The notes under the pieces: generated by a model | Database searches by the model: none | What the model saw: only the letters and a program-made list of their open reading frames with translations | Told to the model about the DNA's origin: nothing | Assembly: GCF_947331465.1 (NCBI RefSeq) | Contig: NZ_CAMZOK010000001.1 | Coordinates: 930,001 to 994,000 of the forward strand | Source of the DNA: Shimia sp. Alg240-R146 | GTDB lineage: Bacteria; Pseudomonadota; Alphaproteobacteria; Rhodobacterales; Rhodobacteraceae | Reading direction: 5' to 3' | DNA length: 64,000 nucleotides | Made by a program: the position numbers and the translations under genes | In this document: one piece after another, positions 1,086 to 15,384 of the stretch | Layout of the letters: each line of letters starts with the position of its first letter | Numbering within the stretch: the first letter of the stretch is position 1

Positions 1086-1808
1086 TCATTCGCTCTCCAC
1101 GCTCAGGCCCATCAGCTGTTCTTGCAGGGCGGCGTCGGTCGCCAGTTCAGACATTTGTCCGGACCAGATCATGCGGCCGTCGTCCATCACGTTGGCTGTG
1201 TCGCCCAGCGCTTTGGCCACGGCAAAATTCTGCTCCACCAAAAGGATCGATGCGCCTTGGGTTTTGAGTTCTTTCACGGCCCGCGCCATTGTGGTGATGA
1301 TGGCCGGCGCCAGACCTTTGGTTGGCTCGTCAATTAGGTAGAGCTGACGCTCCTCGATCATGGCGCGTGCGATGGACAGCATCTGCTTTTGCCCGCCCGA
1401 AAGCGTGCCGGCATCTTTTTTCCAAAACGTCTCGAGTGCTGGAAAGACAGTGAAAAGCCATTGCAGGCGGGCCTGATCAATCGGGCCGCCGACAGCCGCG
1501 AGGATCATGTTTTCCTCAACTGTCAGATCGGCAAAGATGCCCATGTCTTCGGGCACAAAGCCGATGCCCAGCCGCGCGATGGCCGGGGTTGGCAGTTTGG
1601 TGATGTCTTGCCCGTCAAACAGGATCGCGCCTTTGTGGGCGCGCCAATGGCCGATAATGGAGCGTAGGGTTGTTGTTTTGCCAACACCATTGCGGCCCAG
1701 AAGCATGGTGACTTGGCCACGCGGAACCTCAAGGTTGACGCCTTGCAGGATGTGGTATTGCGCGATGTTGGTATAGACGCCGTCGAGTTTCAGGATGGGA
1801 TCAGACAT
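1086..1808 (-). CDS. Liv-type ABC transporter ATP-binding protein (LivF-like)
   Basis: ATPase subunit of the Liv-type importer, 240 residues from the ATG at 1808. Walker A GRNGVGKTTT lies at 38-47, the ABC signature LSGGQ at 136-140 and Walker B with LYLIDEP at 157-163. A longer reading from 1859 would add 17 residues inside the upstream gene. I prefer 1808, because it overlaps the stop of the upstream ATPase by eight bases, which is typical of translational coupling, and because MSDPILKLDGV is a normal LivF-type start. It pairs with the LivG-like ATPase at 1801-2577. Confidence 0.93.
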   Translation of the reverse strand: MSDPILKLDGVYTNIAQYHILQGVNLEVPRGQVTMLLGRNGVGKTTTLRSIIGHWRAHKGAILFDGQDITKLPTPAIARLGIGFVPEDMGIFADLTVEENMILAAVGGPIDQARLQWLFTVFPALETFWKKDAGTLSGGQKQMLSIARAMIEERQLYLIDEPTKGLAPAIITTMARAVKELKTQGASILLVEQNFAVAKALGDTANVMDDGRMIWSGQMSELATDAALQEQLMGLSVESE

Positions 1809-2577
1809 TGGCCAGCGCTCCTTCGAGGTCGCGGCCCATATAGGCCTCTTGCACCACATCCGATGCCATCACTTCGGCGGGTGCGCCGTCTGCGGCCAGT
1901 GCACCGTTGTGCAGCACGATGATGCGGTCAGCTAGCGTGCGGATCACGTCCATCTTGTGCTCCACCAAAAGGATCGAGCGATCTTTGCGGTGTTTCAGAT
2001 CGGCAATCAGATCAAGCACCACGGGTGCTTCGTCCACCGACATGCCAGCGGTGGGTTCGTCAAACATATAGACCAGCGGATCGAGCGCGATCAGGAGCGC
2101 GACTTCGAGTTTGCGCTGATCGCCGTGCGACAATTCCGAGACGATCTGAAGCGCTTGGTCTCGCAAGCGGACCCGCTCTACGATTTCCATCGCGGGGGTC
2201 GTCAGGTCGTCGTGTGTGGAAGCCATCGAGAACATATTGAAGCCGCGGCCAGCCTTGGATTGGATCACAAGGCGCACGTTTTCCAGCACGTTCAGATTTG
2301 GAAACAGGTTGGTCAGCTGAAAGGCACGGCCAATCCCTAGGTGGGTGCGCTGTGCGACGGACATACGCGAGATGTCATGGCCGTTGAGCATGACGCGGCC
2401 TTCGCTGGCGGGGATCTGGCCGGAAATCAGGTTGAAATAAGTGGTCTTGCCTGCGCCGTTGGGGCCAACGATCGCGGTCAATTCACCGGCGTTGAAGCTG
2501 CAGGATATGTGATCGACCGCCACGTGGCCGCCAAAGCGCACGGTCAGGTCGGTGGTCTCAAGGATGTTGTGTGACAT
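1801..2577 (-). CDS. Liv-type ABC transporter ATP-binding protein (LivG-like)
   Basis: Second ATPase of the importer, 258 residues. Walker A GPNGAGKTT is at 38-46. The signature loop is LSHGDQ rather than LSGGQ, a common variant in the LivG branch. Walker B ends in MFDEPTAGMS, and the H-loop is LLVEHKMDVI. It is translated just before the LivF-like ATPase, whose start codon overlaps its stop. The binding-protein gene lies 84 bases upstream. The order binding protein, LivG, LivF, permease suggests one transcript starting upstream of 3834. Confidence 0.94.
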   Translation of the reverse strand: MSHNILETTDLTVRFGGHVAVDHISCSFNAGELTAIVGPNGAGKTTYFNLISGQIPASEGRVMLNGHDISRMSVAQRTHLGIGRAFQLTNLFPNLNVLENVRLVIQSKAGRGFNMFSMASTHDDLTTPAMEIVERVRLRDQALQIVSELSHGDQRKLEVALLIALDPLVYMFDEPTAGMSVDEAPVVLDLIADLKHRKDRSILLVEHKMDVIRTLADRIIVLHNGALAADGAPAEVMASDVVQEAYMGRDLEGALANV

Positions 2578-2661
2578 GGGTCATCTCTCCGGAGACTGCT
2601 CCGGTGGGAAAGGAAAGCCCGGCGACAGCAGGTGCCGCCGGGCTGGAATTTTTAGAGGGTA

Positions 2662-3834
2662 TTAGTTGCGGACCGGGATCGGAAGATCGTCGATGCCAAG
2701 CTCGCGCACCAGTTCAGGGATCGCCCATTCCACATCGTCATCCACACGGATTTTGAAGTGATACATCGGCTGCATCGCCTGATGGTCCTCGGCGCGGAAT
2801 TTCATGGTGCCTTTGGGTGTTTCCCACTCCATGCCTTCCATGGCCGAGATCAGATCCTCGGTGTCGGTGCCGCCGGCCTTTTTGATGGCCTCGACAACCG
2901 CGATACCTGCGGACATGCCACCTGCGGTGAAGAAATCAGGGGGTGTGCCGAAACGATCCTGGTGGGTGGCAACAAGCCAGTCGTTCACGTCATTTTTTGG
3001 AATGTCGTAGTAGTAGTACGTCGCGCCTTCGAGACCGGGGAAGTCCTTGTAGGCCTTCAAGGCAGCGAGGATGTTGCCGCCTGTGGCAATCTCAACACCA
3101 AAGCGGGATGGGTCCATCGCCTGAATTTTGCTCATCGGGTTGCCGCCGCCGGCCCAGATGATGAAGAGCTTCTTGTCGCCTTCGAGGTCTTTCATGGCCG
3201 TAAAGATGCGCTCTGCGGCGGCCGTGAAGTCGGTGGTGTCTGTGGGCGCATATTCTTCGTGCGCAATCGCTTGGCCCTGACCTTCAAGAGCCTCGCGGAA
3301 GGCGGCGATGCCGTCGCGGCCAAAGGCGTAATCTTGCGCCAGTGTCGCGATGTGCACGTTTTCACCGGCCAGCGCGATGGCGTTGGCGACGGCGTCTTGC
3401 GAGCTGTTGCGCGAGGTGCGGAAGATGTAGCGGTTGTAGTTGGCGCCGGTGATGCTGTCGGCCACGGCGGGCTCAACGATCAAAAGCTTTTCGTATTCTT
3501 CAGCAACCGGCAACATCGCCAGCGCCACGCCGGAGCTGACAGGGCCGACTGCGAGGTCAACTTCGTCATCGCCATAGGCTTCTTCCAGAAGCGCTTTGCC
3601 GATGTCGGGCTTGAGCTGTGAGTCTTTTTCAATCACGACGATTTTCTCGCCATTGATTTCCATGGTGCCGCCGGTGGCATACTCCAGCCCCAGCATCAGC
3701 CCGTCGTGGGACTGTTTGGCGTAGGCCTCAAACGGGCCGGTTTTTCCATAAACATGCGCGATCTTGATATCGGCGAAAGCTGTGGTGGTGGTCAGTGCCA
3801 ATGCCGACACTGCGCCCGTGATGAGCCATTTCAT
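2662..3834 (-). CDS. ABC transporter substrate-binding protein, Leu/Ile/Val-binding family (Peripla_BP_6)
   Basis: Periplasmic ligand-binding component, 390 residues. A Sec signal peptide spans 1-21 and ends TTTTAFA, so the mature protein starts DIKIAHVYGKTGPFE. The two-lobed periplasmic-binding fold is supported by VDLAVGPVSSGVALAMLPVAEE and the central GENVHIATLAQDYAFGRDG stretch. It is the first gene of the importer operon, and its promoter must lie in the 272-base gap shared with the divergent HpaR-type MarR gene at 4107. Members of this family bind amino acids, amides or aromatic acids. The neighbouring homogentisate operon favours an aromatic ligand, which is inference only. Confidence 0.92.
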   Translation of the reverse strand: MKWLITGAVSALALTTTTAFADIKIAHVYGKTGPFEAYAKQSHDGLMLGLEYATGGTMEINGEKIVVIEKDSQLKPDIGKALLEEAYGDDEVDLAVGPVSSGVALAMLPVAEEYEKLLIVEPAVADSITGANYNRYIFRTSRNSSQDAVANAIALAGENVHIATLAQDYAFGRDGIAAFREALEGQGQAIAHEEYAPTDTTDFTAAAERIFTAMKDLEGDKKLFIIWAGGGNPMSKIQAMDPSRFGVEIATGGNILAALKAYKDFPGLEGATYYYYDIPKNDVNDWLVATHQDRFGTPPDFFTAGGMSAGIAVVEAIKKAGGTDTEDLISAMEGMEWETPKGTMKFRAEDHQAMQPMYHFKIRVDDDVEWAIPELVRELGIDDLPIPVRN

Positions 3835-4106
3835 AATGCGTTGTCCTCCCTGAACTCACGCCCGACCTGGAGGCCGGGGCGATTGTGGACATGGTAGGAG
3901 GCAGGGGCAAATATGGTCAATTCGGGGAAACTACGTAGGTAATTTTGCGCAGGTTTCGGCCGCTGGAGCCGCGTGCCATCGGTGTCGGTCGATTGATATC
4001 CGGCCGAGGCACTATGGGAGGTTTTTGGGTCGCGGGATTTGGCGCAAAGCCTGACGTGACAAGACGCACAATTGCGTTTTGCAGCTTGGACGTGCATGTA
4101 GGGCGC

Positions 4107-4553
4107 ATGTCGAGACACAGCGAAATTCCAGCCACCTCACAATCCCTGTCGATTGCCCTTTTGCGCGCGCGCGAAAAGGTGATGGGGCCGGTGCGTAAGA
4201 TGCTGGCAGACGTGGGAGTGACCGAGCAGCAATGGCGCGTGTTGCGTGTGTTGGTAGAAGACGGTCCACTTGATCCAACCACGATTGCCGAACGTGCGGT
4301 GCTGTTGCTGCCAAGTTTGACACGCATCCTGCAAAAGCTTGAGGACAAAGAGCTTGTCACGCGGGGACGGGATCAGTTTGACGGCCGGCGGCATGTCATC
4401 ACATTGACCGAGGCCGGTGAGGCCATCATTGCGGCAAATATTCCAGAAGCCTTGCGGCTGGCCGAGGTGCAGCGCGACCGGTTGGGGGCTGAGAAATACG
4501 ACCAGCTGTTGGCATTGTTGAACGATCTGAACGCGGACGGCGGAGAAAGCTGA
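4107..4553 (+). CDS. MarR-family transcriptional regulator, HpaR type
   Basis: Winged-helix repressor of 148 residues from the ATG at 4107 (MSRHSEIP). An upstream reading to 3945 would run through the divergent promoter region and adds nothing conserved. The HpaR-like run ALLRAREKVMGPVRKML is followed by LTEQQW-type VTEQQWRVLRVL and the recognition-helix region LLPSLTRILQKLEDK. HpaR proteins repress aromatic-acid (homoprotocatechuate) degradation genes. Here the gene diverges from a Liv-type importer and converges on maiA of the homogentisate operon. Control of either unit by an aromatic ligand is likely but not shown. Confidence 0.88.
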   Translation: MSRHSEIPATSQSLSIALLRAREKVMGPVRKMLADVGVTEQQWRVLRVLVEDGPLDPTTIAERAVLLLPSLTRILQKLEDKELVTRGRDQFDGRRHVITLTEAGEAIIAANIPEALRLAEVQRDRLGAEKYDQLLALLNDLNADGGES

Positions 4554-4556
4554 CGC

Positions 4557-5195
4557 TCAGTCCGGCTTGACCCTGTCCGGATGCGCCGACGCAAACGCAG
4601 GGAGCGCGGCACAGGCGGACTCGACCGCGACCATTTTCGGACAGTCTGAGAAATCCACACCCCAACGACGGGCGTTGTAAAGCTGTGGCATCAGGCAGAT
4701 GTCCGCAAGGCCAGGCGTGTCGCCACAACAGAACGGCGCCTGATCAAAAGACGCCAGCATCGTTTCAAAGGCATCAAGGCCAGGAGCAATAAAATGCGCC
4801 ATCCATTTTGCCATGGCGTCACCGTCATCCGGCGCAAGCTGTGCCGCATGTTTGGCCACTCGCAAATTGCAGACCGGGTGCAAATCGACAGCAATGGCAT
4901 GAGCCAGCGCCCGTGACTGAGCCGCTGCGGCAGGGTCTTGAGGCAACAGGCCAAGGCCGCGCGTGTCGTTGAGGTAGTCCAAAATCGCCAGCGACTGGGT
5001 CAGACGGATGCCGTCGATGTCGAGCACCGGCACGAGCCCTTGCGGATTGCGGGCAAGGTGCTCGGCGCCGCGATGATCTCCGGCCACCAGATCGACGGGC
5101 ACGCTGTCATAGGCAATGCCTGCGAGATTAAGGGCAATGCGGACGCGGTAGCTGGCAGAAGACCGCCAGTAGTCAAACAACAGAGGCGCGGTCAT
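4557..5195 (-). CDS. maiA: Maleylacetoacetate isomerase (zeta-class glutathione S-transferase)
   Basis: Converts maleylacetoacetate to fumarylacetoacetate with glutathione in tyrosine/homogentisate breakdown. The protein has 212 residues. The N-terminal thioredoxin-like domain carries SSASYRVRIAL at 12-22, the zeta-class signature SSCxxRVRIAL in which the Cys is Ala here; the two serines remain. The QSLAILDYL stretch belongs to the glutathione site, and the C-terminal helical domain contains PGLADICLMPQ. Its ATG overlaps the stop of the DUF2783 gene (ATGA). It is the last gene of the hmgA-fahA operon and ends four bases from the convergent MarR gene. Confidence 0.92.
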   Translation of the reverse strand: MTAPLLFDYWRSSASYRVRIALNLAGIAYDSVPVDLVAGDHRGAEHLARNPQGLVPVLDIDGIRLTQSLAILDYLNDTRGLGLLPQDPAAAAQSRALAHAIAVDLHPVCNLRVAKHAAQLAPDDGDAMAKWMAHFIAPGLDAFETMLASFDQAPFCCGDTPGLADICLMPQLYNARRWGVDFSDCPKMVAVESACAALPAFASAHPDRVKPD

Positions 5196-5392
5196 TTGGA
5201 TTTGGCGCCGGCTGCGTCGAGAGCTTCGGCCAGAACGGCGCGATCCCCGATGTGATTGGACAGGATCAGCACTAGCCGCGCGTTCAACGCGTCAGAACCA
5301 GCGCGGTCGAGACCGTCGTGTGCCGCTAGCAAATCCGCGTAGAAATCGTCGGCAGCTTCGATGTTCGGGGTCAGGATCAGGGTGTCGGGCAT
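5192..5392 (-). CDS. DUF2783 small protein beside FAD monooxygenase
   Basis: A 66-residue acidic helical protein (MPDTLILTPNIEAADDFYADLL...) that I recognise as DUF2783-like. There is no signal peptide, cysteine pair or membrane segment. It starts three bases after the stop of the FAD monooxygenase and overlaps the maiA start by ATGA, so the three are almost certainly co-translated. The position suggests a partner of the flavoprotein. The two-component 3-hydroxyphenylacetate 6-hydroxylase MhaA/MhaB of Pseudomonas likewise pairs a flavoprotein with a small coupling protein, but that parallel is inference, not sequence homology I can verify. Confidence 0.8.
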   Translation of the reverse strand: MPDTLILTPNIEAADDFYADLLAAHDGLDRAGSDALNARLVLILSNHIGDRAVLAEALDAAGAKSK

Positions 5393-5395
5393 GAC

Positions 5396-7006
5396 TTATT
5401 CCTTGCCTGTGGCACGGCGTAGCGCTGTGCGGAATTGGGTTTCATCAAAGGTTTCGCGGCGGGCCGCGACATGTTGATCCGGACGGATCAGGTACACACC
5501 AGACGGTGCATCCCCGAGATAGCGGCGTTGCAGGGCCAATGTTGGATCATCCCGCACCGACAGTGCGAGGCGCGTGACCTCGACACCTTCCTCGACAAAA
5601 CGATCGGACGCGTCGGCATCAATGGTCATCAGGACGAAGCGGTCACCCAAGTGGTCCAGCAAAAACCCGTCCGGCAGCGGCGCGTCGGGGCAGGCACTGC
5701 CGGGACGGGATATTGCAGGTCCGGCAAGAGCGTCGGCGGAATTGAGCGGCGAGCCGTCATAGGTGCATGGTACAGAGAGACGCCCCGAGTTCACCAGAGG
5801 TCGGGCAAATTCGTAATTCTCTGACAGATCCAGCACGGCGTCGCGCAAAACGCGGCTCATGTCCGATTTCGGCGTGATGAAGTCCGTCGAACGGGTGGAA
5901 TTGGTGATGTTTTCGTCTGCACCATGGATGCGCTCGACATTGTAGCTGTCCAGCAAACCTTCGGGCGCTTTGCCGTCGATCACCAGCTTGAGCTTCCAGA
6001 CCAGATTGTCGGTGTCCTGCATGCCGGAATTGGCGCCCCGTGCGCCGAACGGCGAGACCTGATGCGCGGAGTCCCCAGCAAAGAGTGTGCGGCCATGACG
6101 GAACTGCTCCATCCGACGGCACTGGAAGGTGTAGATTGAGACCCATTCGAGGTCGAATTTTACGTCGTCACCGAGCATCGCCTTGAGACGGGGAATGACG
6201 TTTTCAGGCTTCTTCTCTTCTTCTTTGTCGATGTCCCAGCCCAGTTGCAGGTCAATGCGCCAAACATTGTCGGGCTGTTTGTGCAAAAGCGCGGACTGGC
6301 CGCGATTGAAGGGCGGGTCGAACCAGAACCACCGCTCGGTGGGGAAATCGGCATCCATCACCACGTCCGCGATCAGGAAGTTGTCCTCAAACACCCGACC
6401 GACAAAATCCAGCCCCAACATGCGGCGGGTGGGGGAGTTGGCGCCGTCACAGGCAATCAGCCAGTCGGCCTCAAGCGTATAGCTGCCTTCGGGGGTTTCC
6501 ACTTCAAGCGTGACGTGATCGTCGTGTTGGCCAATCGCCTCGACCTTGCTTTGGCCGCGGATTTCAATGGGTGCGCCCTGATCCTGTAAGTCGCGCACGC
6601 GGTCGACGAGGAATTTTTCGAAATGGTATTGCTGTAGGTTGATGAAGGCCGGGCGACGGTGACCGTCCTCGGCCAGAAGATCAAAGTCGTAGACCTGACG
6701 GTCGTCAAAAAAGACCTTTCCCACGTCCCATTCTATACCTTTTTCGACAAAGGGATCGGCGCTGCCGATGCGGTCTAGGATTTCCAGCTGTCGTTTGGCA
6801 AAACAGATCGCGCGGGAGCCAAAGGAGACCTTGTCGTTGTCATCCAGCACCAGCACCTGGACGCCCTGATTGGCGAGGTCGATGGCCGCAGACAATCCGA
6901 TCGGGCCGGCGCCAATCACGATCACCTTGTGACGCGCTGGCGTGGCCGCGTCTTGATCGGCGTGCCGCGTATACGGGTAAAGCGGCGTTTCAAAGATCTT
7001 GCTCAT
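5396..7006 (-). CDS. FAD-dependent aromatic monooxygenase (PheA/TfdB/MhpA family)
   Basis: Flavoprotein hydroxylase of 536 residues. The Rossmann GAGPIG lies at 32-37, the DG motif ACDGANS at 185-191 and the GD motif AGDSAHQVSPFGARG at 310-324, all diagnostic of class A flavin monooxygenases. I use the ATG at 7006, preceded by GGGGGAGGAAACCC, not the upstream one at 7051. The gene lies inside the homogentisate operon with hmgA, fahA and maiA, followed at once by DUF2783. A substrate that yields homogentisate, such as 3- or 4-hydroxyphenylacetate, would fit the context. Annotation as 3-(3-hydroxyphenyl)propionate hydroxylase would rest on family similarity only. Confidence 0.9.
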   Translation of the reverse strand: MSKIFETPLYPYTRHADQDAATPARHKVIVIGAGPIGLSAAIDLANQGVQVLVLDDNDKVSFGSRAICFAKRQLEILDRIGSADPFVEKGIEWDVGKVFFDDRQVYDFDLLAEDGHRRPAFINLQQYHFEKFLVDRVRDLQDQGAPIEIRGQSKVEAIGQHDDHVTLEVETPEGSYTLEADWLIACDGANSPTRRMLGLDFVGRVFEDNFLIADVVMDADFPTERWFWFDPPFNRGQSALLHKQPDNVWRIDLQLGWDIDKEEEKKPENVIPRLKAMLGDDVKFDLEWVSIYTFQCRRMEQFRHGRTLFAGDSAHQVSPFGARGANSGMQDTDNLVWKLKLVIDGKAPEGLLDSYNVERIHGADENITNSTRSTDFITPKSDMSRVLRDAVLDLSENYEFARPLVNSGRLSVPCTYDGSPLNSADALAGPAISRPGSACPDAPLPDGFLLDHLGDRFVLMTIDADASDRFVEEGVEVTRLALSVRDDPTLALQRRYLGDAPSGVYLIRPDQHVAARRETFDETQFRTALRRATGKE

Positions 7007-7105
7007 GGGTTTCCTCCCCCAATGGATCAGGTGCGCGCATCGTTTGGTCACGCAGTGTTCCAGACCGGGCGGTATCCCGCCACGATCTGGATCAAAGACG
7101 GGTCT

Positions 7106-8056
7106 TTAGCCCTGCAAGGCTTCCCACATTTCAATGTCGCGCTGGGCGGTCCAGATGCGAGGGGTGTCGATGCCTCGCGCCTCGTCATAGGCGCGGGCAA
7201 CGTTGAAGGGCAGGCAGTGCTCATAGATGGCGTAGTCGCCAAATTTCGGGTCACATTCCGCGCGCACGGCGTCCCATGCTTCTTTCAAAGTGCCGTTGCG
7301 GGCGGCAACACGCGCCGCCGGACGATAAGTGCTTTCGACAAAATCGCGGGTGTTTTCGATGGCGGCGTTGACCATCTGTTTTCCGATCAAAGCATCGCCG
7401 CGACCGGGTGCGATGGCGTCCACATCAAACGACGCAATGTTGTCGAGTGTGTCGCCCCAATCGGAGAAATGCCCGTCGCCGCAATAGCAGGCAGAATGGT
7501 ATTCAACGATGTCGCCGGTGAACATGACGTTCTGATCCGGCACGTGGATCACGATGTCGCCGGCAGTGTGGGCGCGACCCAGATGCATCAGGTCGATGCG
7601 GCGGTTGCCGAGGTAGACAGTCATGTCCTCGGAAAACGAAGTGGTCGGATAGGTCAGGCCGGGAATGCTTTCGTGGCCTTCAAACAGGCGTGGGAAGCGT
7701 TGGAATTCACTGTCCCAGTCTTCCTGGCCACGCTCCACCACCATCGCGCGGGCGGCGTCGCCCATGATGATCTGATCTGCGCCATAAGCGGACGCACCCA
7801 GCACGCGCACAGCGTGATAGTGGGTCAGCACAACATGGGAGATCGGCTTGTCCGTCACTGTGCGCACGCATTCGATGACTTTGTTGGCAAGGCGCGGTGT
7901 GGCCTGTGCCTCAACGATCATCACGCTGTCGTCGCCGATGATCACACCGGAGTTGGGGTCGCCCTCGGCGGTGAAGGCATAAAGCCCGTCGCCAACTTCG
8001 GTGAAGGAGATGTTTTTTTCCGTCATGTCGCCTTGCGACGCAAATGCCTTGGCCAT
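7106..8056 (-). CDS. MBL-fold metallohydrolase with degenerate metal motif
   Basis: Metallo-beta-lactamase fold protein of 316 residues (ATG at 8056; an internal ATG ten codons later is possible). The usual HxHxDH motif reads HYHAVR at 79-84: both first histidines stay, but the Asp and last His are replaced by Val and Arg. GRAHTAGD at 160-167 and MFTGDIVEYHS at 178-188 supply the other expected ligands. One metal site may therefore be lost or altered. The gene starts six bases after the RibD-like reductase and precedes the FAD monooxygenase, so it belongs to the aromatic operon. Its reaction is unknown. Confidence 0.87.
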   Translation of the reverse strand: MAKAFASQGDMTEKNISFTEVGDGLYAFTAEGDPNSGVIIGDDSVMIVEAQATPRLANKVIECVRTVTDKPISHVVLTHYHAVRVLGASAYGADQIIMGDAARAMVVERGQEDWDSEFQRFPRLFEGHESIPGLTYPTTSFSEDMTVYLGNRRIDLMHLGRAHTAGDIVIHVPDQNVMFTGDIVEYHSACYCGDGHFSDWGDTLDNIASFDVDAIAPGRGDALIGKQMVNAAIENTRDFVESTYRPAARVAARNGTLKEAWDAVRAECDPKFGDYAIYEHCLPFNVARAYDEARGIDTPRIWTAQRDIEMWEALQG

Positions 8057-8061
8057 GTGGG

Positions 8062-8598
8062 TCAATCCTTGAAGATGTAGTCGAGTTTCATGATGCCGCC
8101 GGGCATCGGATGCGATGCGGTCAGCGACAGATTGTGTTGAGCGCCAGGGGCAAAGCACGGCAGGCCGCGCCCCAGAAGCGTTGGCATGAGGAAGATCGAG
8201 ATGCGGTCAAACATGCCCGCATCCATTGCGGCGCGTTGGGTCTGTCCGCCGCCCATGATCCAGATGCGGTGATGATCCGCAGTTTCGATCGCAGCCTTGA
8301 GGTCTTCGACCGGTCCGGCAGCGGCGATGTGATCGCCTTTGAAGTCGTGTCGATGCGTCAACACATAGGCGGGGCGGGCTTCATAAGGCCAGCCCCATCC
8401 AAGCACTTGGATGTAGGTCGCGTGACCCACCATGAGTGCGTCAATTTCGGTGATGAAATCACCGTAGCCGCCATCGCCACCATCAGACGCAATCGCCTCG
8501 TTGAACGGGTTCAGCCATTCTACACCGCCGTCCGGAGTTGCGATGAACCCATCAAGGCTCATCGCGATATATCCGACATATTCGGGGCGGTGTGTCAT
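8062..8598 (-). CDS. Dihydrofolate reductase family protein (RibD C-terminal-like)
   Basis: A 178-residue reductase-fold protein. The start region YVGYIAMSLDGFIATPDGGVEWL is typical of the RibD_C/DHFR-like family, and HRIWIMGGGQTQ supplies the second conserved nucleotide-binding segment. Such proteins bind NADPH, but their substrates are often unknown. It lies 15 bases downstream of fahA and six bases upstream of the MBL-fold gene, within the homogentisate operon. No membrane segment or signal peptide is seen. A direct role in homogentisate breakdown is not required by the known pathway, so it may act on a side substrate. Confidence 0.88.
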   Translation of the reverse strand: MTHRPEYVGYIAMSLDGFIATPDGGVEWLNPFNEAIASDGGDGGYGDFITEIDALMVGHATYIQVLGWGWPYEARPAYVLTHRHDFKGDHIAAAGPVEDLKAAIETADHHRIWIMGGGQTQRAAMDAGMFDRISIFLMPTLLGRGLPCFAPGAQHNLSLTASHPMPGGIMKLDYIFKD

Positions 8599-8613
8599 GG
8601 CGGGCTCCGGTGC

Positions 8614-9870
8614 TCAGCGTTTGTAGGGGTCTTCCAGCGCTGGCAGGACCGTTCCGGTGCAGGTGCCAAATCCGATGGTGTAGCCATCGCCCTTGGCGCT
8701 ACCGCCGAGGGTAAGCGTGTCGCCGTCCTCGATAAAGGTGCGGGTTTCGCCGGTGCCCAATGTCAGCGGCTCTTTGCCACCCCAGCTGAGTTCGAGAAGG
8801 CTGCCGCGTTCGGGTTTGGTCGGGCCGGAAATTGTGCCGGATCCCAACAAATCACCCACATTCATCGGGCATCCCGATGTGGAGTGATGCGCCAGCTGTT
8901 GTGCGGCGGAATAATACATCTGGTCATAGTTGGTACGGGTGATGGTGGTGGCTTCTTTGCCCTCGGGTGCCATGGTCACGGTGAGGTCGATGTCATAGAG
9001 CATCGGGCCCACGTCCTTGATGTGGTCCAGAAGCTCAAACTCGCGCTCAGGTGTCATGGTGCGGAACGGCTCCAGTGCTGCCTTAGTCACGATCCAAGGC
9101 GAGATGGAGGTTGCGGTGGCCTTGGCCTGAAACGGGCCTAGCGGCTGGTATTCCCACGCCTGAATGTCACGCGCGGACCAGTCGTTCAGCAGCACATAGC
9201 CAAAGATGTTGTCGTCGGCTTCCTTCACCGAAATCGGGCCATCGGAGGCGGTGCCGACAATGGCGCCCATTTCCAGTTCGATGTCAAAGCGGCGACAGGG
9301 CAGGAAGGCGGGCATGTCGTGATCTGGCGACTTCAGCTGACCCCATGGGCGGCGGATGTCGGTGCCGGACACGACAACGGACGACGCGCGACCGTTGTAG
9401 CCAATCGGGATGTGCAACCAGTTTGGCGGCAGCGCATTTTCCGCGCCACGGAACATGGTGCCGACATTGGTCGCATGGTGGCGACCGGCGTAGAAGTCGG
9501 TGTATTCGCTGACCGCGATGGGCATGTGAAGTTCGGCCTCAGCCATTGGCACTAGCAAAGGCTCAACGGCGGCGCGCTCGGCGCTGCCTTCGGACAGCAA
9601 TGCGATCAGGTGCGTGCGCAGGTCGCCCCATGCTTCGGCGCCGAGATCCATGACGTCGTTCCAATAGGGCAGATCAAAGACCGGCTCATCAGAAACCTGT
9701 ACCAGACCGGCTTCTTCGGCTGCGGCCATATCAAGGATCATATCGCCAATGGCGACGCCGCAGCGTTGCTCGGTTCCGGCGTGTGAGAACACACCATATG
9801 GCAGGTTGTTAAGGGGGAAAGGGTGGTCGGGCGCGTTGGCGCTCTCCACCCAGCTTTTCATCAAAGACAT
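8614..9870 (-). CDS. fahA: Fumarylacetoacetase
   Basis: Last step of homogentisate catabolism: hydrolysis of fumarylacetoacetate to fumarate and acetoacetate. The protein has 418 residues, the normal size of the eukaryotic-type enzyme. The metal/catalytic segment SEYTDFYAGRHHATNVG contains Asp125 and His132, matching the family catalytic pair, and DIELEMGAIVG carries the metal-binding glutamates. I use the ATG at 9870 (MSLMKSWVESANAP); the reading from 10020 overlaps the end of hmgA. The gap to hmgA is 98 bases. Confidence 0.96.
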   Translation of the reverse strand: MSLMKSWVESANAPDHPFPLNNLPYGVFSHAGTEQRCGVAIGDMILDMAAAEEAGLVQVSDEPVFDLPYWNDVMDLGAEAWGDLRTHLIALLSEGSAERAAVEPLLVPMAEAELHMPIAVSEYTDFYAGRHHATNVGTMFRGAENALPPNWLHIPIGYNGRASSVVVSGTDIRRPWGQLKSPDHDMPAFLPCRRFDIELEMGAIVGTASDGPISVKEADDNIFGYVLLNDWSARDIQAWEYQPLGPFQAKATATSISPWIVTKAALEPFRTMTPEREFELLDHIKDVGPMLYDIDLTVTMAPEGKEATTITRTNYDQMYYSAAQQLAHHSTSGCPMNVGDLLGSGTISGPTKPERGSLLELSWGGKEPLTLGTGETRTFIEDGDTLTLGGSAKGDGYTIGFGTCTGTVLPALEDPYKR

Positions 9871-9968
9871 GCGCGTTTCCTTGTGGTGCAGGGCGTCCCC
9901 TGCGTCTTTCTGGCTAAAATACCCAATGGGAGCCACGCGAAAGACACGTGGCCCCCTTAGGTGTGAGT

Positions 9969-11324
9969 TTACTTCTTCCCGGGTGTGCCGTCGAACTTCT
10001 TCTCCAGATCGCTCCAGCAATCGATATAATCATCCTGCATCGGGGCCTGGCGACCGGCGAAGTCGGTCAGGTGCTGCGGGAAGCGGGTTTCGATCATGAA
10101 CGACATGGTGTTGTCGAGCTTCTCGGCCTCCAGCTTGGCCTCGGACGCGCCTTCAAAGGCGTTCTTGTCCGGTCCGTGCGGGATCATCATGTTGTGCAGG
10201 CTCATCCCGCCCGGGACGAAGCCCTGCGGCTTGGCGTCATACTGGCCGTAAATGTTGCCCATCAACTCGGACATGATGTTCTTGTGATACCACGGAGGAC
10301 GGAAGGTATCCTCGGCCACCATCCAGCGTTCGCGGAACAGAACAAAGTCGATGTTGGCGGTGCCGGGCTGGCCTGAGGGCGCGGTCAGGACGGTGAAGAT
10401 CGAGGGGTCGGGGTGGTCAAACAGAATCGCACCAACTGGGCAATAGGTGCGCAGGTCGTATTTCACCGGCGCATAGTTGCCGTGCCACGCCACCACATCC
10501 AGCGGGCTTTGATTAATGTTGGTGCGGTGGAACTGTCCGCACCATTTCACGGTCACGGTCGAAGGCACTTCGCGGTCTTCAAAAGCGGCAACAGGTGCTT
10601 TGAAATCGCGCGGGTTGGCCATGCAGTTGGCCCCAATCGGACCACGTCCGGGCAATTCGAATTTCTGGCCGTAGTTTTCGCAAACAAACCCACGGGCTGG
10701 CCCTTCTAGCACTTCGACGCGATACAACAGGCCGCGTGGAATGATGGCGATTTCTTTGGGTTCAAGATCGATGACGCCCAATTCGGTGGAGAATCGCAGC
10801 ACGCCTTCTTGCGGAATCACCAGCAGTTCGGAATCGGCGGAGAAAAAGTAATCATCCTCCATCGTCGTGTTCACCAGATAGACATGAGAGGCCATGCCGA
10901 CTTGGGTGTTCACATCACCCGCGGTGGTCATGGTGCGCATACCGGTGATCCATGTCAGGGCCTCTTCGGTATGGGGCATAGGGTCCCAGCGGTACTGACC
11001 AAGCGAAGTTACGTCGGGGTCCACGCAGGGGGCGGACTTCCAAGACGGCACATCGATTTTTTCATAACGGTGACTGTGTTTTACCGACGGACGAATGCGG
11101 TAGCACCATGTGCGTTCCACAGATTCGGCGGTGAAAGCCGTGCCTGACAACTGCTCCCCATAAAGGCCGTAGTTGCACTTCTGCGGGCTGTTCATGCCTT
11201 GGGGCAAAGCACCGGGCAGGGCCTCGGTTTCGTAGTCGTTGCCAAAGCCGGGCATATAACCCTCGTGCGGGCCGGGAATGGACGGGGCAATTTGCATGCG
11301 GGTCGGGAGGGTGTGTTTGGTCAC
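9969..11324 (-). CDS. hmgA: Homogentisate 1,2-dioxygenase
   Basis: Opens the homogentisate ring to maleylacetoacetate using Fe(II) and oxygen. The protein has 451 residues from a GTG at 11324, which is preceded by GGAGAC; an upstream ATG at 11354 lacks a fitting site. [18 protein letters not shown] is a hallmark of the family. The iron site is visible in the C-terminal half as [11 protein letters not shown] followed by [12 protein letters not shown]. It is the first gene of the catabolic operon. The 77-base gap to the divergent MarR gene at 11402 holds the promoters and presumably the operator. Confidence 0.97.
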
Positions 11325-11401: not shown

Positions 11402-11869
11402 ATGACTGAGACTGCCAAAATCGAAGGGTTCGACCTGCTTAGGTTTCTGCCCTATCTGCTAAATCAGGCAGCTGAAGAATCCAGCCTGACGTTCCAGAAG
11501 GTCTATAAAGACCGCTACGGGTTGTTGCGCACTGAATGGCGCGTGCTGTTTCATCTGGGCATGTTTGGCGAGATGACCGCCACGGATATTGGCACACGCG
11601 GCAAGATTCATAAGACAAAAGTGAGCCGCGCCGTCTATCGGCTTGGGCAACGTCGGTATCTGAAACGGATGCCAAGCGAAACCGATCGACGGGTCGAATG
11701 GCTGGTTTTGACGCCTGCGGGTGAAGCGGTTTACCGGGATCTGCGAGACACTGCTGAACGGTATGAAGAGGCGCTTCTGGATGGGTTCACTGCTGACGAA
11801 GTTGCGCAACTGAAGCGTGTTTTATGTCGGTTGGGTGGAACAACTGATTCGGCCGGTTCGCCAAAATGA
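11402..11869 (+). CDS. MarR-family regulator, probably of the homogentisate operon
   Basis: A 155-residue winged-helix protein transcribed away from hmgA. LLRTEWRVLFHLGMFGEMTATDIGTR is the first helix-turn-helix part, KTKVSRAVYRLGQRRYLKR the recognition helix, and ETDRRVEWLVLTPAGEAVYRDL the wing. The start ATG is preceded by GCAGGAGGCG. Divergent placement beside the first gene of the operon makes it the best candidate for the local hmg repressor. It is only distantly like the HpaR-type MarR protein encoded at 4107, so the two probably sense different ligands. Confidence 0.88.
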   Translation: MTETAKIEGFDLLRFLPYLLNQAAEESSLTFQKVYKDRYGLLRTEWRVLFHLGMFGEMTATDIGTRGKIHKTKVSRAVYRLGQRRYLKRMPSETDRRVEWLVLTPAGEAVYRDLRDTAERYEEALLDGFTADEVAQLKRVLCRLGGTTDSAGSPK

Positions 11870-12036: not shown

Positions 12037-12318
12037 ATGGGTTTGAAAACGACAACCAAATTGGCGTTGATGTCTGTAGGCGCAACACTATTGACGGCGA
12101 CATCGGCCTTGTCTCAAGACAGTGGCGGATGGCGCAGCAACTGGTGGTGGCGTTGGTTTGGCGGCAACACTGGTGGTTCAACTGGTGGCTCTACAGGTGG
12201 TTCTTCTAACGCTGTTCCAGAGATTGACGCGGGTGCCGGCCTTTTGGCAATGGCAGCTGTGCTGGCCACATTGGCGTTGGTTTGGGAACTGCGCCGCCGC
12301 CGCAACAAGGCGGATTGA
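12037..12318 (+). CDS. VPEID-CTERM sorting domain protein, Trp-rich small secreted protein
   Basis: A 93-residue exported protein. A signal peptide covers about 1-26 (LLTATSALS, then QDS). Next comes a Trp cluster WRSNWWWRWF at 32-41, a Gly/Ser/Thr linker with repeated TGGS at about 42-58, and the sorting tail: VPEID at 60-64, a hydrophobic helix at 67-84 and RRRRNKAD at the end. VPEID-CTERM is the known recognition tail of exosortase E. I choose the ATG at 12037 with GAGAGGG upstream, because it opens a proper signal peptide. The gene ends four bases from the convergent exosortase E gene. The mature portion would be about 34 residues. Function unknown. Confidence 0.9.
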   Translation: MGLKTTTKLALMSVGATLLTATSALSQDSGGWRSNWWWRWFGGNTGGSTGGSTGGSSNAVPEIDAGAGLLAMAAVLATLALVWELRRRRNKAD

Positions 12319-12322
12319 TCGT

Positions 12323-13900
12323 TTAGATCAGCGCCCAATTGGCGGTGAACAACACATAGACCGCAATCACAGCGTTCGCAGCCCCATGGGCCGCGATTGC
12401 GTTTGTAAGCCCATGCTTTCGCAAAGCGAGCAAACCAAACACCGCGCCCGCAAGCATACCAGCGAGATAGCGTTCGTGTAGCAGTCCAAACAACAGGTTC
12501 GGCAGCAAAAGCGCCAAAACCACCCAGATCAGCCCGCCGCGCATCAGGCGGCGCTGAATATAGCCCCGGAAAAACAACTCTTCGATCACTGGCACCAAAG
12601 CGATGGTGCCCAGTAGACGAAAGGCAATCCATGCCGTCGAAGGCGCGGCTGCCTGTGCTTGGGTCACTGGCGCAGTGATCAGCCAGAGCGCGCCGACCGC
12701 GATGCCTGCAAGTACGGCGAGGGCTTCGGGGCGTTGCACAAGGCGGACAAGGGCGGGACGAAAGTAAAGTAGCACACACAGCATCGCAACGGCGCGAAAC
12801 GGGTAGGCGTCCGACGGGGTGGGCCAGAACGCGGATGCTACGACGCCAGTGATCATCATCACGATAAACGGCACAATCAGGGCCGCTAAGCCTTCTTCAG
12901 CCAGTCTTGGCAGGTCGTTACGGTCACGAGGCGTGCGGTGCAGCCAGGCCCATTGGTGAGCCACGGCGACAACACCAAGGGCGAGGGCTGTGAACATCAG
13001 CCAGCCTGCGTAGGAATGAAACCCGTTTAGCGCGTGTTCCGCAGACACTTCGGCGCCAATCACGATCAGGATCGCGATGCGCAAAATGTTAAAGAGCCAA
13101 CTGCACAGCACTGCCAGCGGAAAAAGCGCGAGCCAGAAGCGGCGCATGCGCAGGTCGGCCTTCATCAACATCGCATAAAGCCCCATGAAGATGGTGATCA
13201 GCGCGATGCCTTCAACACCGGAGCATTGGCTGGCGATCTGCACGAAAAAATCATCATAGCCGATCACATAACTTGCAGGATCTACGCCGACGTCTACGCC
13301 CATGGCCGACAGCACCAGAAACACCAGAAAGAAGGTCAGACTCGACAGATCCGCGATGTTCCACAAGGGGCGCATCAGATCCGCCAGATCAGGCACGATG
13401 ACGGCGCCAAGCAGGGCCACGGGCAGGAAATAGCTTTGGGATTGCAGCCAGCGCCACCATTGGCGCGCAGGTGTAATCCAAAGCAGCGCGCCCAGTGCGG
13501 CGAGCGTGCCGCCAGCGGTCATCATCAAGAGTGTTGGCAGAAACCGGTGCGAAATCTCAGTGGCCCCAAAAAGCGGCAAAGGCAAAAAGATCAGCGCCAG
13601 CCCCAAACCATGCAACGTCAGCCAAATGTGCGGGCCGGGGGCGGATTGGGTTGCCTCGCGCAACGCTTGATAGGCGCGGGGGCGCAGCCAGAAATAAAGC
13701 GCCAGAACCGTTATCACCGCGAGACCTCGGGCGGTCATTGACCGAAGCGCGCGACAAGCGGCCTCGATCTCGGTCTGACGGCATTCGATGGAGGCTATGA
13801 CCTGATAGGTGATAATCACGGCCAGAAGCTCTGCCACTGCGATGCCCGCCATGATCGTCAGGCGGTTCCGCATTGGTTTTATGGCCGTTGGCGCACTCAT
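12323..13900 (-). CDS. xrtE: Exosortase E/CPBP protease fusion, VPEID-CTERM system
   Basis: Polytopic membrane protein of 525 residues. The exosortase domain shows the catalytic Cys226 (SQCSGVEG), Arg274 (FNILRIAILI) and His295 (FHSYAGW). The C-terminal third is a CPBP (CAAX-protease/Abi) domain with EELFFRGY (Glu440, Glu441, Arg445), His475 in GLLHERY and HGAAN at 505-509. This fusion is the known XrtE architecture, expected to cleave VPEID-CTERM tails; its substrate is encoded tail to tail at 12037. It starts nine bases after mipZ with no clear ribosome site, so translation is probably coupled to mipZ. Confidence 0.93.
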   Translation of the reverse strand: MSAPTAIKPMRNRLTIMAGIAVAELLAVIITYQVIASIECRQTEIEAACRALRSMTARGLAVITVLALYFWLRPRAYQALREATQSAPGPHIWLTLHGLGLALIFLPLPLFGATEISHRFLPTLLMMTAGGTLAALGALLWITPARQWWRWLQSQSYFLPVALLGAVIVPDLADLMRPLWNIADLSSLTFFLVFLVLSAMGVDVGVDPASYVIGYDDFFVQIASQCSGVEGIALITIFMGLYAMLMKADLRMRRFWLALFPLAVLCSWLFNILRIAILIVIGAEVSAEHALNGFHSYAGWLMFTALALGVVAVAHQWAWLHRTPRDRNDLPRLAEEGLAALIVPFIVMMITGVVASAFWPTPSDAYPFRAVAMLCVLLYFRPALVRLVQRPEALAVLAGIAVGALWLITAPVTQAQAAAPSTAWIAFRLLGTIALVPVIEELFFRGYIQRRLMRGGLIWVVLALLLPNLLFGLLHERYLAGMLAGAVFGLLALRKHGLTNAIAAHGAANAVIAVYVLFTANWALI

Positions 13901-13909
13901 CTGATCGAG

Positions 13910-14719
13910 TCAGAAGTCGGGCGTAACGCCGGGAAGGTTTAGCGCTTTGATCAGTTCGCGCAATTCCTGACGGGCGGCGACGTTAGAAATGTTGAGCTGT
14001 TTGACCCCGATGTCGCGCAAATCCAGAAGGGTAATGCCGCGCGGGAAGAGTTCGCGGAAAATGACACGCTCGTTAAAGCCCGGCGCCACACGAAAGCCGA
14101 TACGCTTGGCAAGTTTGTCCAGCGCCTTGCCCATTTTCTCTTTGTTGACCATTTGCTGCGCGCCCATACGGTTGCGCATGACGATCCAGTCGATTGGCTG
14201 CAACCCGGCCTGTGCGCGCAACTGCCGCGCGCTCCAGACCATTTCAGAGTACACAGACGGGCCGGTGATTGTGTCGGCGTCGCCGTCGATGTGGGCCAGA
14301 AGGTCAAAGTCGACAAAGCTGTCGTTCAACGGTGTCACCAGCGTGTCCGCCAACGAGTGCGCGACCTGCGAGAGGCGGGTGTGCGAACCCGGGCAATCAA
14401 TCAGAATGAAGTCGCTGTCAGGTTCCAGCGTTGCTACCGCTGCTGACAGGCGCAGATCATAAATGTTTTCGCCGGGCTTCAGCGTTGCAGGGTCGATTTC
14501 CGGCAGATCGTGATAGTCCGGAGTGGGCAAGTCGAGGCCATGTTCATTGGCATATTTCAGGCGGTTTTCGACGTAGCGGCCAAAGCTTTTCTGGCGCAAG
14601 TCCAGATCAAGCGCGCCAACCTTGTGGCCCATCCGCGTAAGAGCGGTGGCGATGTGCATCGACAACGTGGATTTGCCCGCGCCGCCCTTTTCGTTGCCGA
14701 CCACAATGATATGCGCCAT
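13910..14719 (-). CDS. mipZ: MipZ-type division-plane positioning ATPase
   Basis: ParA/MinD-like P-loop ATPase of 269 residues that, in Caulobacter and relatives, forms a gradient from the poles and keeps FtsZ at midcell. The deviant Walker A KGGAGKST is at 11-18, followed by ALDLDLRQKSFGRYVENR, which is typical of MipZ, and FILIDCPGSHTRLS for the Walker B region. It sits nine bases upstream of the exosortase E gene and probably shares its transcript. The promoter should be in the 110-base gap before rluE's end. There is no partner ParB in the window. Confidence 0.93.
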   Translation of the reverse strand: MAHIIVVGNEKGGAGKSTLSMHIATALTRMGHKVGALDLDLRQKSFGRYVENRLKYANEHGLDLPTPDYHDLPEIDPATLKPGENIYDLRLSAAVATLEPDSDFILIDCPGSHTRLSQVAHSLADTLVTPLNDSFVDFDLLAHIDGDADTITGPSVYSEMVWSARQLRAQAGLQPIDWIVMRNRMGAQQMVNKEKMGKALDKLAKRIGFRVAPGFNERVIFRELFPRGITLLDLRDIGVKQLNISNVAARQELRELIKALNLPGVTPDF

Positions 14720-14829: not shown

Positions 14830-15384
14830 TTAGGGCTGGCTGTCTCGCCATTCACCCGTCGCCAAGTCGCCAAGTGACCAGTCGCCGACGCGTGCCCGGA
14901 TCAGCCGCAGCGTGGGGTGGCCCACGGCGGCGGTCATGCGGCGCACTTGGCGGTTGCGACCTTCGCGGATTGTCAGCGCAATCCAGCAATCGGGAACTGA
15001 TTTACGCACGCGGATCGGCGGAGTTCGTGGCCAAAGATCGGCGGGTTCGTCAATGCGTTTCACGTCGGCGGGTTTTGTCAGCCCGTCCTTGAGCGTCACG
15101 CCTTTGCGTAACGCGGCCAGTGCTGCATCATCCGGCAGGCCCTCGACCTGTACCCAATACGTCTTGGCCATCTTGTGACGCGGATCGGCGATGCGGGCCT
15201 GCAGTTTGCCGTCATCTGTCAGCACCATCAGCCCCTCGCTATCACGGTCCAGACGGCCGGCGGGATAGACTTTGGGCACGTCGATGAAGTCCGACAGCGT
15301 GCGGCGGGTGCTGCCCTCAAGGCCTTTGTCGGTGAATTGCGACAGCACATCGAAGGGTTTGTTAAAGAGGATCACGCGGGTCAT
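14830..15384 (-). CDS. 23S rRNA pseudouridine synthase, RluE-like
   Basis: Pseudouridine synthase of the RsuA/RluB/RluE family, 184 residues. The catalytic motif [10 protein letters not shown] is at 43-52 with Asp46 as the nucleophile. The family end motif [24 protein letters not shown] is complete. There is no N-terminal S4 domain, which fits RluE (modification of U2457 in E. coli numbering) better than RluB or RsuA. The specific target is inferred from length and lack of S4. It diverges from the PLP enzyme at 15471 across a short gap. Confidence 0.92.

Follow-up and report, generated by a model that had tools for sequence, protein, structure and literature searches.

Exosortase E and its miniature VPEID-CTERM substrates in Shimia and related bacteria: a dedicated sorting system that may display short peptides

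What does an exosortase fused to a CPBP domain do with a substrate of only 93 residues? The question arises from a gene pair in the genome of Shimia sp. Alg240-R146 (Rhodobacteraceae), in a stretch of 64,000 nucleotides (contig NZ_CAMZOK010000001.1 of assembly GCF_947331465.1, positions 930,001 to 994,000 of the forward strand) that we call the window and on which coordinates are counted unless another locus is named. The first gene, P0001 (12037-12318, + strand), encodes a 93-residue VPEID-CTERM protein, and the second, P0002 (12323..13900, - strand), encodes exosortase E (XrtE, 525 residues). The genes are convergent, with 4 bp between their ends, and have as neighbours a MarR-type regulator (11402-11869, +), mipZ (13910-14719, -) and an RluE-type pseudouridine synthase (14830-15384, -). 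An initial annotation had recognized the pair as a VPEID-CTERM protein adjoining an exosortase E-CPBP fusion, and both the translations and the curated family cut-offs bear this out.

The translation of P0001 falls into four parts. A predicted signal peptide, MGLKTTTKLALMSVGATLLTATSALS (residues 1-26, 12037..12114, + strand), was judged by eye and by a crude rule of our own rather than by SignalP; the likely cleavage site, again by eye, follows residue 26, between ALS and Q (relatives have ALA before this Q). Then come an aromatic head, QDSGGWRSNWWWRWF (residues 27-41, 12115..12159, +), in which WRSNWWWRWF is kept in relatives, and a flexible leash, GGNTGGSTGGSTGGSSNA (residues 42-59, 12160..12213, +), which follows the average pattern of class A, described below. 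The VPEID-CTERM sorting tail (12214..12318, +) consists of the motif, a membrane helix, WELRRRR and the stop codon, and residues 60-89 match TIGR04161 with 48.1 bits against a cut-off of 33. The five Trp and two Arg counted in WRSNWWWRWF by the initial annotation are confirmed; its core of about 34 residues becomes 33, measured from the likely signal-peptidase site to V60. At a Trp background of 1.38%, the chance of at least five Trp in 33 residues is 8.6e-5, for a stretch that was chosen for looking odd. Profile searches of the Shimia genome gave one exosortase match and one VPEID match (TIGR04161, 50 bits); TIGR02595 had no match in this genome, and the same model was silent in every control too. 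The window system is dedicated, in the sense in which PMC3237569 uses that term for sorting systems (papers are cited by PMC number): it has a single target, encoded beside its enzyme.

P0002 is over the cut-offs of TIGR04162 (586 bits against 150, residues 18-525), PF09721 and PF02517. Its exosortase domain (residues 57-315, 12956..13732, - strand; PF09721, E 4.6e-18) contains C226, R274 and H295, which are conserved in all 117 distinct XrtE sequences that we collected. The CPBP/Rce1-like domain (residues 423-511, 12368..12634, -; PF02517, E 1.2e-14) has the EExxxR, H and HxxxN residues (E440, E441, R445, H475, H505, N509) that are conserved in 115-116 of the 117, the exceptions being L098, which is cut by a stop, and L140. 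A Cys pair is also well kept (C40 in 114/117, C49 in 116/117). It is of note that the loci with long or divergent candidate substrates, L066, L067 and L083, lack C40. The AlphaFold2 model of XrtE has a mean pLDDT of 90.7; Foldseek found no match to it in the PDB at E <=0.001, nor did a sequence profile at E <=0.1. Loops 207-227 and 282-295, which carry catalytic residues, have no Lys or Arg, while the next loops, 247-262 and 315-329, have four and three, a distribution that points to a periplasmic position of the exosortase site, on the same face as VPEID. The topology is not firm, however, because helix counting from the positively charged N-terminus of the model disagrees with this distribution and puts the Cys226 loop inside.

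Is the CPBP half a second processing enzyme or a means of self-protection, both of which the initial annotation allowed for? CPBP enzymes are known that cut sorting tails (MrtX, PMC11980579) or a peptide precursor (MroQ, PMC10482373). In P0002 the next best family for this half is TIGR03008, which is named for PEP-CTERM (91 bits, above cut-off), and the MrtJ model scores 36.7 bits, under its 75-bit cut-off. Self-protection found no positive support. Since the catalytic residues are kept, processing is likelier than immunity; on these residues and on the nearest named families, we rejected immunity as the leading reading.

Genomes with an XrtE above the cut-off number 22 of 149 for the same family (one per genus), 44 of 390 for the order, 4 of 385 for the class and 4 of 299 for the phylum. 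The samples overlap, and within them XrtE occurs outside the family only in genomes G545 and G972. VPEID matches at E <=0.001 were present in 21 of the 149 (15 above the model cut-off), and 19 of these 21 have XrtE. Genome G048 has a VPEID tail together with an exosortase that is not called XrtE, and G134 has a tail and no exosortase match; in G141, G007 and G017 the candidate tails encoded alongside XrtE are divergent, that of G017 being very weak (E 0.2). A set of 137 XrtE loci (the window, 56 from the genome samples and the best 80 of 197 from a collection scan) reduced to 117 distinct ones, and 107 of these contain a tagged ORF within flanks of about 6 kb. Ten genomes have no flanking tag: nine were searched and all nine have a tail elsewhere at E <=0.05 (eight above cut-off), and the tenth, G146, has a VPEID tail on a different contig. 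The association of enzyme and tag is near-strict.

Candidate substrates numbered 115, of which 109 were counted; six rows were left out (three of L066, and L067, L083 and L138). Starts and signal peptides were assigned by the crude rule and corrected by hand, L102, L117, L127 and L065 being taken as signal-bearing. With crude-rule starts the precursors are 52-122 residues long (median 72), and 108 of 109 have at most 110 residues; the mini-peptide product proposed for the window is a family-wide rule of mini-cargo. VPEID proteins that were mostly long, with unrelated folded domains, would speak against such a rule and were looked for: a single locus of the 107, L066, has long candidates alone. 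The far relatives agree in size, G545 having cores ISGGS, GFAPIG and GKVRIPIG and G972 having LIPPT before APEID. Of the two properties that the initial annotation wished to see checked in segments encoded beside XrtE, shortness is supported; "always Trp-rich" is ruled out by the substrates that we call class B, none of whose 20 cores has Trp.

The window protein belongs to class A, in which an aromatic head is followed by a Gly/Ser/Thr leash. This class has 89 members, including L070, L072, L077 and L084, whose XrtE either is not linked, lies on another contig or is absent (by context, L077 would be class B). Among class A rows with a linked XrtE, 82/85 are convergent, with stops at most 100 bp apart in 75 of the 82. 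The cores have a median of 25 residues and contain 10.9% Trp, against a background of 1.38% taken from 439,385 residues of long non-overlapping ORFs. At least three Trp occur in 49/89 cores (0.61 expected), at least two in 64/89, and none in 14/89. By lineage (XrtE at 60% identity) the median is at least two Trp in 21 of 39, which leaves 18 lineages without. From the first to the last fifth of the core the aromatic fraction runs.24,.38,.17,.03 and.01, and Gly, Ser, Thr, Asn, Pro and Ala make up more than 80% of the last two fifths; the head-leash pattern holds for much of the class. None of 27 predicted exported neighbours (31, less four that were Shimia substrates themselves) has at least three Trp. 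As a control this is weak, for pump permeases make up 7 of the 27. Aromatic residues as a whole separate less well, at least three being found in 11/27 controls (15/31 with the Shimia substrates) against 71/89 class A cores.

A few loci depart from the one-enzyme, one-substrate arrangement or have broken genes. At L133 / L071 of genome G027 (about 7555-8540 of L071) one XrtE is accompanied by a tandem row of three leaderless mini-substrates whose cores are unlike, and a fourth, with a signal peptide, lies elsewhere in the genome (L072). At L147 (7520-8248, from a MAG) a single continuous frame holds three successive VPEID motifs with unlike cores, one of them amphipathic-looking and Trp-rich; either a tandem array whose frames have fused or a faulty assembly could explain this. 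In L138 (Roseovarius sp. FR_34) the part encoding signal peptide and head appears to be out of frame with an intact VPEID tail, presumably through a frameshift or a sequencing error. An in-frame stop interrupts XrtE at L098 / L035 (Roseovarius gaetbuli), where the substrate gene looks intact.

The recurrence of the same miniature design in related species suggests a surface-displayed peptide, and we favor, with a probability of roughly 0.55, a dedicated one-enzyme, one-substrate system that displays a mini-peptide at the cell surface. After export of the precursor by Sec, the C-terminal helix would hold it, the Arg cluster lying inside. The exosortase domain of XrtE would then attack VPEID on the periplasmic face via Cys226 and probably transfer the peptide to an envelope acceptor, as other sortases do. 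The fused CPBP half may make a second, intramembrane cut, most simply in that tail or in the stub left of it. What results would be an aromatic head that a flexible leash tethers by its C-terminus and that is likely to serve surface or matrix interactions. Exosortases, archaeosortases and myxosortase are described as leaving or anchoring their substrates on the surface (PMC11980579, PMC7157517), and the presence of a leash between head and tag is easier to understand for a displayed peptide than for a released one. Some observations count against display: class A neighbours are lineage-specific rather than including one common surface partner, and cores of 5-9 residues exist (e.g. ISGGS, NVNPIQITS), which leave little to display and would suit a signal (pheromone) role equally well.

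Does the core sequence matter at all? If the tail, or its lipid or polymer adduct, were the functional part, the core would be a mere spacer free to drift; the 5-9-residue cores of G545, G972 and class B and the wide variation of cores between genera are as expected on that account. We judge this account improbable. WRSNWWWRWF is identical in the window, Shimia sp. SK013 and S. haliotis, whose XrtE proteins are 98% (SK013) and 78% (S. haliotis) identical to that of the window. Between the window and S. haliotis, head plus leash differ by 21.5 synonymous and 4.5 nonsynonymous changes, an excess that indicates that the gene is kept as a protein. The head alone accounts for 6.5 and 4.5 (on 6.7 and 38.3 sites, respectively) and the leash for 15.0 and 0; the tail has 18 and 4. 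Four Shimia-type genes, compared codon by codon in six pairs, have a per-site excess of synonymous over nonsynonymous change in all four parts of the protein, signal peptide and tail included; since synonymous sites are near or past saturation, only the direction of this selection signal is safe. Such constraint on head and leash, the Trp enrichment of class A, and the persistence of the head in class A members that have lost the signal peptide all speak against a drifting spacer.

These last members are 24 class A precursors of 52-64 residues that have no signal peptide by the crude rule. Most start at or very near the aromatic head (MWNWFF..., MFDWFW..., MSWLDR...). GGAG lies at most 18 nt upstream of the start in 15/24, and in 15/24 an in-frame stop lies at most 10 codons upstream, leaving no room for a signal peptide; the remaining nine have 15-49 upstream codons that encode none by the crude rule. 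Leaderless precursors occur in five XrtE lineages, and the trait needs at least five changes on the XrtE tree, a quick tree of 111 of the 117 rows with 29 of 114 branches weak and with long-branch warnings. LPXTG and PEP-CTERM proteins are described as always having some signal peptide (PMC3237569), and a re-analysis found one in 97% of PEP-CTERM proteins (PMC1569441); the leaderless substrates run counter to "always". Short N-tail-out insertion, in place of Sec export, would account for them.

A Trp/Arg-rich head also invites the reading of the initial annotation, in which XrtE releases a membrane-active, bacteriocin-like peptide against which the producer is protected by the CPBP domain. Besides the Trp-rich heads of class A, it can draw on cores that look amphipathic (e.g. 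STSWSSWWDDLWSAFDDLWDDLYSG in L147), on the tandem unlike peptides of L133 and L147, and on a gene for an AcrB-type pump that is the same-strand neighbour of the mini gene in 31/117 loci (e.g. L109, 7996-11862; the assignment is by Pfam PF00873 on one member). The pump loci all fall in one clade of 36 in the XrtE tree, so the linkage may be shared descent, and the arrangement may be one-clade synteny or a working link. We nevertheless judge release distinctly unlikely: a long Gly/Ser/Thr leash precedes the tag, the CPBP domain keeps its catalytic residues and is fused to the processing enzyme, the net charge is not positive in 49/89 class A cores, and no immunity-type gene was seen, mostly by eye, among the 20 neighbour clusters that recur in at least eight loci. 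SilX, a CAAX protease of a bacteriocin locus, had no immunity role (PMC9298176), although others have one.

Other neighbours of mini-substrates were noted. An HlyD-type gene lies near the mini-substrate gene at L135. Fatty acid hydroxylase genes (PF04116) adjoin mini-substrates at L189 (genome G545, 8316-11060) and L067 (G007, 4625-5676), and their presence in two deep lineages makes a lipid link possible; as a general partner the hydroxylase was rejected, since beyond the two genes at L189 a single locus of 141 has it.

Could the product instead be a signal? XrtE might act like AgrB (a Cys protease) plus MroQ (a CPBP protease) on AgrD, freeing a short, species-specific pheromone. That AgrD is processed by AgrB and MroQ (PMC10482373) provides a precedent, XrtE has two unlike protease domains, the short cores differ between genera while the tail is conserved, and 8/20 class B cores have two Cys. 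We consider this unlikely, as the recurrent neighbour clusters, inspected by eye, include no histidine kinase or receptor (which could be unlinked), and the Trp head is not hypervariable, being the same in the window and the two Shimia relatives above.

Surface display gains a different kind of evidence from class B. The 20 cores of this class have 7-20 residues (median 12.5), and those with two Cys have exactly two. In 19 of the 20 loci a large adhesin is encoded near the mini gene; the exception, L065, was put in class B by orientation and lies outside the class B clade in the XrtE tree. Four of the adhesins were scanned and have SdrD_B plus Ig, cadherin or SpaA-type domains; where N-termini were readable, a signal peptide was not evident by eye. 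Of 16 members, 11 have a C-terminal domain that resembles Pfam TED at E <=0.1 (best 1.1e-6), under the curated cut-off in full adhesins where listed; the domain had no credible match among PDB sequences. Among 25 aligned copies, Tyr/Phe-Cys is present in 24, Q-x-A-x-W in all 25 (with Ile in 24) and C-x-C near the C-terminus in 24. The Cys and Gln of such motifs form a thioester in known thioester domains. Adhesin and mini gene remain together even at loci whose XrtE lies elsewhere or on another contig or was not found (L171, L172, L077, L188), and XrtE is absent from 3 of the 11 adhesin-bearing genomes among the 149. The same thioester-type adhesin occurs without XrtE at L187 (G001, 4007-8580) and L186 (G063, 1381-6783). 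A protein whose tail is of the VPLPA type follows it in G001, where the surrounding genes look by eye like polysaccharide genes and an exosortase match lies about 14 kb away; in G134 two neighbours match polysaccharide families. The adhesin domain had no match in the window's genome, so class B bears on the window by homology alone.

Taken further, and with considerable doubt, exosortase E systems would be anchoring devices whose whole cargo is a surface peptide of 5-60 residues. In class B this peptide would be a dock for an adhesin that has an internal thioester domain and no signal peptide, perhaps covalently through the N-terminal amine; in class A a Trp-rich head on a leash would have taken over binding, and in several lineages loss of the signal peptide would have brought the precursor down to 52-64 residues. 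We found no assigned role for the exosortase E family, and the pairing with a thioester-type adhesin gives it a concrete functional lead. For ArtA, a well studied relative, the exact processing site and the lipid are still unclear (PMC11980579); for identifying what an exosortase attaches its substrate to, hardly any setting could be simpler than a genome with one exosortase and one very short substrate.

How does this system compare with known ones? PEP-CTERM/EpsH (exosortase A) shares with it the exosortase domain and a tail made of motif, helix and basic end. That system has a median of eight targets per genome, a link to exopolysaccharide and 97% signal peptides (PMC1569441), against one mini substrate and one exosortase match here; the same paper reported, in 2006, four fusions of EpsH-like and CAAX-protease-like proteins, and read them as a functional link. 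Myxosortase and MrtJ/JDVT-CTERM have a CPBP glutamic protease, as does XrtE, and MrtJ, like the window enzyme, forms a two-gene pair with one target (PMC11980579), but here the VPEID motif has no invariant Cys and the CPBP domain is fused to an exosortase. AgrB and MroQ, as proposed here for the two halves of XrtE, bring a Cys protease and a CPBP protease to one short precursor (PMC10482373); the likeness is one of analogy, homology to AgrB is not claimed, and no receptor was found here. Finally, the window pair is itself the VPEID-CTERM/exosortase E system of TIGR04161 and TIGR04162, both genes being over the curated cut-offs, and enzyme, tail and exosortase-CPBP fusion are already known. The papers searched gave no mention of VPEID-CTERM, nor any description of the mini-cargo rule, the leaderless forms or the adhesin pairing, for which an earlier mention in Haft 2012 or in NCBIfam notes is possible. 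Set against the exosortase E system as known, the mini-cargo rule, the head-leash design, the leaderless substrates and the pairing with an adhesin are what the present analysis adds.
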